This document shows, one piece after another, positions 26,399 through 27,277 of a DNA stretch of 64,000 nucleotides. The stretch comes from Gammaproteobacteria bacterium (GTDB lineage Bacteria; Pseudomonadota; Gammaproteobacteria; GRL18), in contig JADGDG010000011.1 in the NCBI GenBank assembly GCA_016744995.1, positions 62,001-126,000 of the forward strand. Reading direction: 5' to 3'. Under the pieces are notes generated by a model. It searched no databases. It was given only the letters and a program-made list of their open reading frames with translations, and had not been told where the DNA came from. Made by a program: the position numbers and the translations under genes. Within the stretch, counting starts at the first letter, position 1. Every line of letters begins with the position of its first letter.

Positions 26399-26426
26399 TT
26401 GCCCTGCAAGTTTAAGATGTTATAAT
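26399..26426 (+). promoter_or_regulatory. sigma-70 promoter of 6S RNA
   Basis: A TTGCCC element at 26399-26404 and a perfect TATAAT at 26421-26426, spaced 16 bases, placed 8 bases before the expected 5' end of 6S RNA. Confidence 0.7.
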
Positions 26427-26434
26427 ACCGCTAT

Positions 26435-26652
26435 GTGAAAGTTCTCTCTGAGCAGGTTAGTGAACTGGGTACTTCTTGAGCCGTAATCTTTTACCCCGGG
26501 GATGCGCGCCTGGTACTGTGTGCATGCCTGTCCTTTAGCTGCAATTTTTATTGCAGCTAAAGAGAACAGAAAGCCTTATTTATCAGTCATATCCCCACTT
26601 GAACCGATAGGTTCAAGAGCGAAAGTTGACGACGGCCCAGACTGTCTTTCAC
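26435..26652 (+). ncRNA. ssrS: 6S RNA
   Basis: Regulator of sigma-70 RNA polymerase. The ends pair (GTGAAAG at 26435-26441 with CTTTCAC at 26646-26652), and 6S hallmarks are seen inside: TTCTTGAGCCGTAAT, GCATGCCTGTCC, GAGAACAGAAAGCCTTA and the stem ACTTGAACC...GGTTCAAG. Position between zapA and the cyclo-ligase gene is diagnostic in gammaproteobacteria. Confidence 0.95.
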
Positions 26653-26674
26653 TCTTAATTTCCGGTGACTTCTT

Positions 26675-27277
26675 ATTAATACTCAAGTTATTGACACGCA
26701 ATCACTTCGAAAAAATTTACGCCAACAGCGTTGCCTCCTTTCAGCAAGAGAGCAGCATCAACATGCAAAGCGTATATCCCAGCGCATAATTCATTCAAAA
26801 ATTTATCAACAGGCCAAATACATTGCACTGTATTTACCAGCTGATGGTGAAGTTGACCTATCCACATTGGTAAACAAATTACAGTCCAGCACAAAAAAAT
26901 GTTATTTACCGGTCATTTTATCCCGACAACAGGCAACTATGGCTTTTGCTCCCTATGGAGAGCACACTCGCATGAAGAAAAATTGCTTTGGTATTCTTGA
27001 ACCTGTATTCCAGAAAAAACAATTAAAAACAGCTAAACAGATCGATCTGATACTGGCCCCGCTGGTAGGCTTTGATGAGCTTGGGAATCGCATAGGAATG
27101 GGAGGAGGATTTTATGATCGGGCTTTAGCGCATTTAAAGTCTGCTAAGAACCGACCTTTAAAACCCAAATTTATTGGCATTGCACACGAACTGCAAAACG
27201 TCCAGAAACTCAAGTCATATGCCTGGGATATTACTCTGGATGCTATCGTCACAGAAAGACGCTTCAGCTATTTTTAG
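26675..27277 (+). CDS. 5-formyltetrahydrofolate cyclo-ligase, apparent ATT start
   Basis: Converts 5-formyl-THF to 5,10-methenyl-THF with ATP. The C-terminal signature GMGGGFYDRAL and DEL GNRIG-type block are clear. Reading back in frame, coherent family sequence (SLRKNLRQQRCLLSAREQ, YIALYLPADGEVDLSTLV) continues to a stop at 26666, yet no ATG or GTG exists, and the first TTG (26867) would delete about 64 essential residues. The ATT at 26675 lies six bases after GGTGA and gives a normal 200-residue protein; ATT 26690 is the alternative. Only infC and few other genes are known for ATT starts. Follows 6S RNA, as ygfA/fau does elsewhere. Confidence 0.85.
   Translation: MNTQVIDTQSLRKNLRQQRCLLSAREQHQHAKRISQRIIHSKIYQQAKYIALYLPADGEVDLSTLVNKLQSSTKKCYLPVILSRQQATMAFAPYGEHTRMKKNCFGILEPVFQKKQLKTAKQIDLILAPLVGFDELGNRIGMGGGFYDRALAHLKSAKNRPLKPKFIGIAHELQNVQKLKSYAWDITLDAIVTERRFSYF

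Follow-up and report, generated by a model that had tools for sequence, protein, structure and literature searches.

The stretch of DNA analysed here, referred to as the window, comprises 64,000 nucleotides of a gammaproteobacterial genome, and it holds zapA, 6S RNA and fau in that order (Table 1). The product of the last gene matched two models of the cyclo-ligase family over nearly its whole length and above their cut-offs, namely PF01812 with 146.5 bits (cut-off 27, E 1.1e-42) and TIGR02727 with 168.5 bits (cut-off 84.9, E 1.4e-49, positions 2-182 of the 182 in the model). By family match the gene is fau/ygfA, predicted to encode 5-formyltetrahydrofolate cyclo-ligase, and it is present as a single copy in the genome. 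Its frame runs from TGA (26666-26668) through CTT, CTT, ATT (26675-26677), AAT, ACT and CAA and stays open until TAG at 27275-27277, with no ATG, GTG or TTG ahead of the TTG at 26867. Translation from the ATT gives 200 amino acids, and from the TTG 136 amino acids with 64 codons lost, which is the length to which gene finders restricted to ATG, GTG and TTG would shorten Fau. A preliminary description of the locus had read the frame in this way, with the loss of 64 codons, and had pointed to the GGTGA six bases before the ATT, the resulting 200 residues and the position of the gene directly after 6S RNA; the sequence agreed on each point, with the RF00013 match ending at 26647.

Table 1. Features at the 6S RNA-fau locus, numbered from the first nucleotide of the window.
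Feature	Position	Strand	Evidence or remark
Sigma-70-like promoter: TTGCCC, 16 nt, TATAAT with TG before	26399..26426	+	Consensus scan, 10/12 matches; just upstream of 6S RNA
6S RNA (ssrS)	26442..26647	+	RF00013, 49.9 bits, E 5.2e-08
GGTGA, Shine-Dalgarno-like	26664..26668	+	Six bases before ATT; overlaps in-frame stop TGA 26666-26668
Four-codon mini-ORF GTG ACT TCT TAT TAA	26665..26679	+	Stop overlaps ATT; also in G012, without canonical start in G007 or G004
ATT, inferred fau start codon	26675..26677	+	Common to four species of one clade at aligned place; ATG in likely sister and L003-L006
fau/ygfA, 5-formyltetrahydrofolate cyclo-ligase, 200 aa and stop	26675..27277	+	PF01812, TIGR02727; PDB homologues 1sou, 3hxt, 2jcb; dN/dS
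Second in-frame ATT, inside degenerate 15-nt tandem repeat	26690..26692	+	Unlikely start; 21 nt from GGTGA
TTG, first in-frame canonical start	26867..26869	+	Rejected as fau start

The arrangement resembles the ssrS-ygfA operon of E. coli, which has the same gene order and in which 6S RNA and fau are co-transcribed (PMC2848244). In the window, the ATT of fau lies about 27-28 nt past the end of 6S RNA on the same strand, and no plus-strand terminator-like site was found between the two. The two loci differ at the start of fau, where E. coli has ATG codons available whereas the window has none. Promoter-like matches were equally frequent in shuffled sequences, and the sole support for the promoter in Table 1 is its position before 6S RNA. 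Rho-dependent termination inside fau features in the title of Chae et al. 2011, as cited in PMC10670590. The first 200 nt of the window's fau contain more C than G, to an extent matched in only 2 of 34 ORFs in the window, and as a sign of Rho-dependent termination this excess would be suggestive at best.

To go 64 codons without ATG, GTG or TTG has a chance of about 0.03 at the codon frequencies found in ORFs of the window, and alone the missing canonical start is unremarkable. It becomes remarkable because three further congeneric species likewise have no canonical start there and carry an aligned ATT. The closest relative is G012, with a protein 86% identical. Between the fau genes of the two, codons 2-64 showed 23 synonymous changes per 43.7 sites and 8 non-synonymous changes per 145.3 sites, a dN/dS of 0.063 at a dS of 0.91, and the remaining codons gave a dN/dS of 0.094, a constraint of the same kind. 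The 63 codons between the ATT and the TTG are under strong purifying selection and are therefore translated, although the residues ahead of the family motif, 10 to 22 in number, are variable in length as well as sequence, and selection there was shown for the L001/L002 pair only. Both family-model matches begin at residue 11 of the 202-residue open frame, which is residue 9 counted from the ATT, and the alignments with the solved homologues 1sou, 3hxt and 2jcb start at residue 9-11. A start at the TTG was rejected on the grounds of this constraint and of these structural alignments.

Among the 13 congeneric species that have the gene, a canonical start near the N-terminus is missing in exactly four, namely the window's species, G012, G007 and G004. 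The context of the start is CTT-ATT-AAT-ACT in the window, ATT-ATT-AAT-ACT in G012, ATT-ATT-AAC-ACT in G007 and ATC-ATT-AAC-GCT in G004. The second codon of this context is the sole near-start codon common to all four, so that ATT-AAY stands at the same aligned place in each. The aligned codon is ATG in L003-L006 (ATT-ATG-ACA) and in G013, the likely sister, which reads ATG-ATG-ACC and whose flank is still homologous (TGGCAATATATGATGACC versus TGGCAGTTTATTATTAAC of G007). In a six-gene protein tree the four ATT species formed one clade with a bootstrap of 100, and the place of G013 beside them had a bootstrap of only 78. The frames of all four genes are open, without stops. The identity of the four codons is not strong by itself, ATT being the most frequent isoleucine codon (669 of 1112 in the window's ORFs). 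A single ATG-to-ATT switch in the ancestor of the four species would explain the inherited ATT. Together with the dN/dS upstream of the TTG, the alignment with orthologues, ATT in the clade and ATG in its relatives, upheld the ATT at 26675 as the most likely start, as had been proposed in the preliminary description.

The start codon of fau proved labile in the family as a whole. The start could be read in 20 genomes of the family, where we counted 8 ATG, 8 TTG and 4 ATT, the TTG starts being assigned for lack of an ATG. The neighbours pepP, ygfB, zapA, ilvA and rpiA, in contrast, keep an ATG start in 76 of 76 alignable cases. Fisher's test on fau versus neighbour start codons gave 2e-10. This value overstates the evidence, given the relatedness of the species, the way in which TTG starts were assigned and the restriction to neighbours whose first residue could be aligned. 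The lability of fau beside neighbours that keep ATG suggests that the family tolerates or favours a low output of Fau. It is a pattern of this one family and was not seen outside it. The idea that fau starts are weak throughout the Gammaproteobacteria was rejected, with an ATG near the start in 67 of 88 fau loci compared to 51 of 71 for zapA, which is no worse.

The predicted duplex of GGTGA with the anti-Shine-Dalgarno sequence has an energy of -7.4 kcal/mol in the window's species and in G012, equal to that of infC in the genus. No Shine-Dalgarno sequence was recognisable before the ATT in G007 (-2.1 kcal/mol) and G004 (-1.5 kcal/mol), and the relatives with an ATG start likewise have none. 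RNA structure around the start of fau did not go beyond expectation (z-score -0.01). A degenerate 15-nt tandem repeat covers the start region at 26675-26704 (ATTAATACTCAAGTT / ATTGACACGCAATCA) and is nearly perfect in G012. The infC genes of the genus also have no ATG, GTG or TTG, and instead a conserved ATC behind GGAG in 13 of 13 congeneric genomes read; non-canonical starts are therefore already in use by these ribosomes. The infC start is thus ATC, not ATT as in E. coli (L116 of the window's genome, L113, L115, L117-L121 and L123-L127). An altered initiator tRNA was excluded by its CAT anticodon and standard sequence, and a lax IF3 was ruled out as IF3 carries no clade-specific substitution. 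The pcnB gene was considered as a second AUU case in the genus and rejected, having ATG at the conserved start. The simplest reading would be that fMet is placed at the ATT by the usual machinery.

Taken together, we consider it highly probable that fau is translated from the ATT at 26675, and that this start arose once in the ancestor of the four species and was kept, with weak initiation, presumably disfavoured by IF3, expected to keep the cyclo-ligase scarce. We infer that transcription would run through into fau from the 6S promoter and that ribosomes would use the ATT, the ordinary fMet initiator tRNA starting the protein there on the 30S subunit, in the window's species with the aid of the GGTGA. 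A G-to-T change would have turned the ancestral ATG into ATT, once, in the common ancestor, to be retained since. The AUU would then make for weak, IF3-disfavoured initiation and scarce Fau despite the position of the gene directly behind 6S RNA. Low Fau output is the most probable consequence of the AUU start, as published AUU reporters gave about a tenth of the AUG output in Staphylococcus aureus; sensitivity of the start to IF3 would also be expected by analogy.

Only a very small number of bacterial genes with an AUU start have been described. The fau start is a further case beside infC, pcnB and cvfC1, and it is real, inherited and rare. A brief search of the open-licence literature found no report of fau starting at AUU. 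Changes from AUG to AUU are very rare: a comparison of 36 genome triplets gave 1 for 61,358 starts that were ancestrally AUG (PMC5622118). As with fau in the window's species and in G012, a Shine-Dalgarno sequence at normal distance precedes a conserved, non-canonical ATN codon in the infC genes (ATT in E. coli, ATC in Streptomyces); infC differs in that IF3, its product, controls its own synthesis, whereas Fau is a folate enzyme without a known role in start-codon choice. The pcnB gene of E. coli is likewise a chromosomal gene with an AUU start, described in a title as limiting translation (Binns and Masters 2002, as cited in PMC13009471), but it is another gene, and in the genus of the window it has ATG at the conserved place. 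The AUU start of cvfC1 in S. aureus is conserved within its clade, as is that of fau, and its reporter output was about 10% of that of AUG in poor medium (PMC13009471). In contrast to fau, cvfC1 encodes a 61-residue Gram-positive protein behind a very strong, extended Shine-Dalgarno sequence, while that of fau is of moderate strength in the window's species and G012 and absent from G007 and G004. The sigR gene of Streptomyces has a GTC start repressed by IF3 (PMC5472188) and resembles fau as a clade-conserved non-canonical start previously missed by annotation; its codon is GTC rather than ATT, and its control by IF3 was established by experiment, whereas for fau such control is hypothetical. 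The fau gene, a housekeeping gene that follows 6S RNA and keeps its AUU throughout a clade, offers a clean natural case for testing the effects of such starts.

The reading that comes closest would add to the preferred explanation rather than replace it, with the same start site. The ATT could serve as a regulatory start that makes Fau output depend on the level of IF3, or on the folate and formyl supply of the initiator tRNA, by analogy with infC and Streptomyces sigR. IF3 represses non-canonical starts generally, sigR with its GTC is a physiological use of this (PMC5472188, PMC2268962) and the ATT was retained across the clade. However, IF3 shows no clade-specific change, and conservation of the ATT could mean mere tolerance of low expression, which leaves a regulatory start possible but doubtful. 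The preliminary description had implied a rare translational control as one option; a rare, weak start is well supported by the sequence, and control by IF3 or any other factor would be a step beyond it. A wider proposal, in which Fau synthesis would report on the fidelity of initiation or the supply of formyl-folate, and a single circuit evolved in the clade would tie one-carbon metabolism to start-codon selection and to the 6S RNA operon, is quite improbable.

Re-initiation at the ATT after termination of the mini-ORF at 26665-26679 could draw on the overlap of stop and ATT in the window's species and G012, and on the tolerance of re-initiation for weak start sites. The mini-ORF is without a Shine-Dalgarno sequence of its own, however, and no canonical-start ORF ends there in G007 or G004, which makes re-initiation quite improbable. 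Very improbable is a start at another near-cognate in-frame codon such as the ATT at 26690, which the tandem repeat of the start region yields in the window's species and G012; it lies 21 nt from the GGTGA, and the homologue of the relatives' ATG is the ATT at 26675. The genomes are draft assemblies, and a similar picture would result from an error in sequencing or assembly, or from decay of the gene with its real product made from the TTG at 26867. Against this highly improbable reading, the four frames are open, the species form a clade and dN/dS is 0.06-0.09 along fau; a base error is very unlikely because it would have to recur in four separate assemblies, which agree.

The preliminary description had also raised a hidden frameshift. 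This suggestion found no support: nothing interrupts the frame, selection acts on it, and the four ATT species have no canonical start in common upstream in a different reading frame. A programmed frameshift or stop read-through carrying upstream ribosomes into the fau frame is hardly credible: a GTG in the neighbouring frame does end with TAT-TAA at the start of fau, but no slippery site is evident, the upstream frames pass through 6S RNA and the arrangement is absent from G007 and G004. On this last ground a programmed +1 shift from GTG 26665 between TAT and TAA was rejected, as was read-through of TGA 26666, since G007 and G004 have no stop there and yet still no canonical start.

Several further observations were made on fau in other genomes. 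A fau match was absent in three genomes of the same genus (G005, G008 and G015), one of them 95% complete, reflecting either an assembly gap or gene loss. Despite much divergence between their fau genes at synonymous sites, the four ATG-start relatives L003-L006 share ATGTCAATAAGC at 25-27 nt before the ATG, where it opens a small leader ORF (MSIS...). In E. coli K-12 (L132:888-941), the annotated start of the 182-residue Fau leaves a conserved LRK-like motif (EIRK) outside the protein, and the motif would be covered from an in-frame ATG (ATG ACG CAA) 18 codons upstream, which lies 21 nt past the 6S RNA; the annotation may thus be too short. Chromatium okenii DSM 169 (L042:4986-5000) has a fau without a canonical start ahead of the family motif, and its likely start is an ATC three bases past the end of 6S RNA, behind GGGGGGTG, possibly an independent non-canonical start of the gene.
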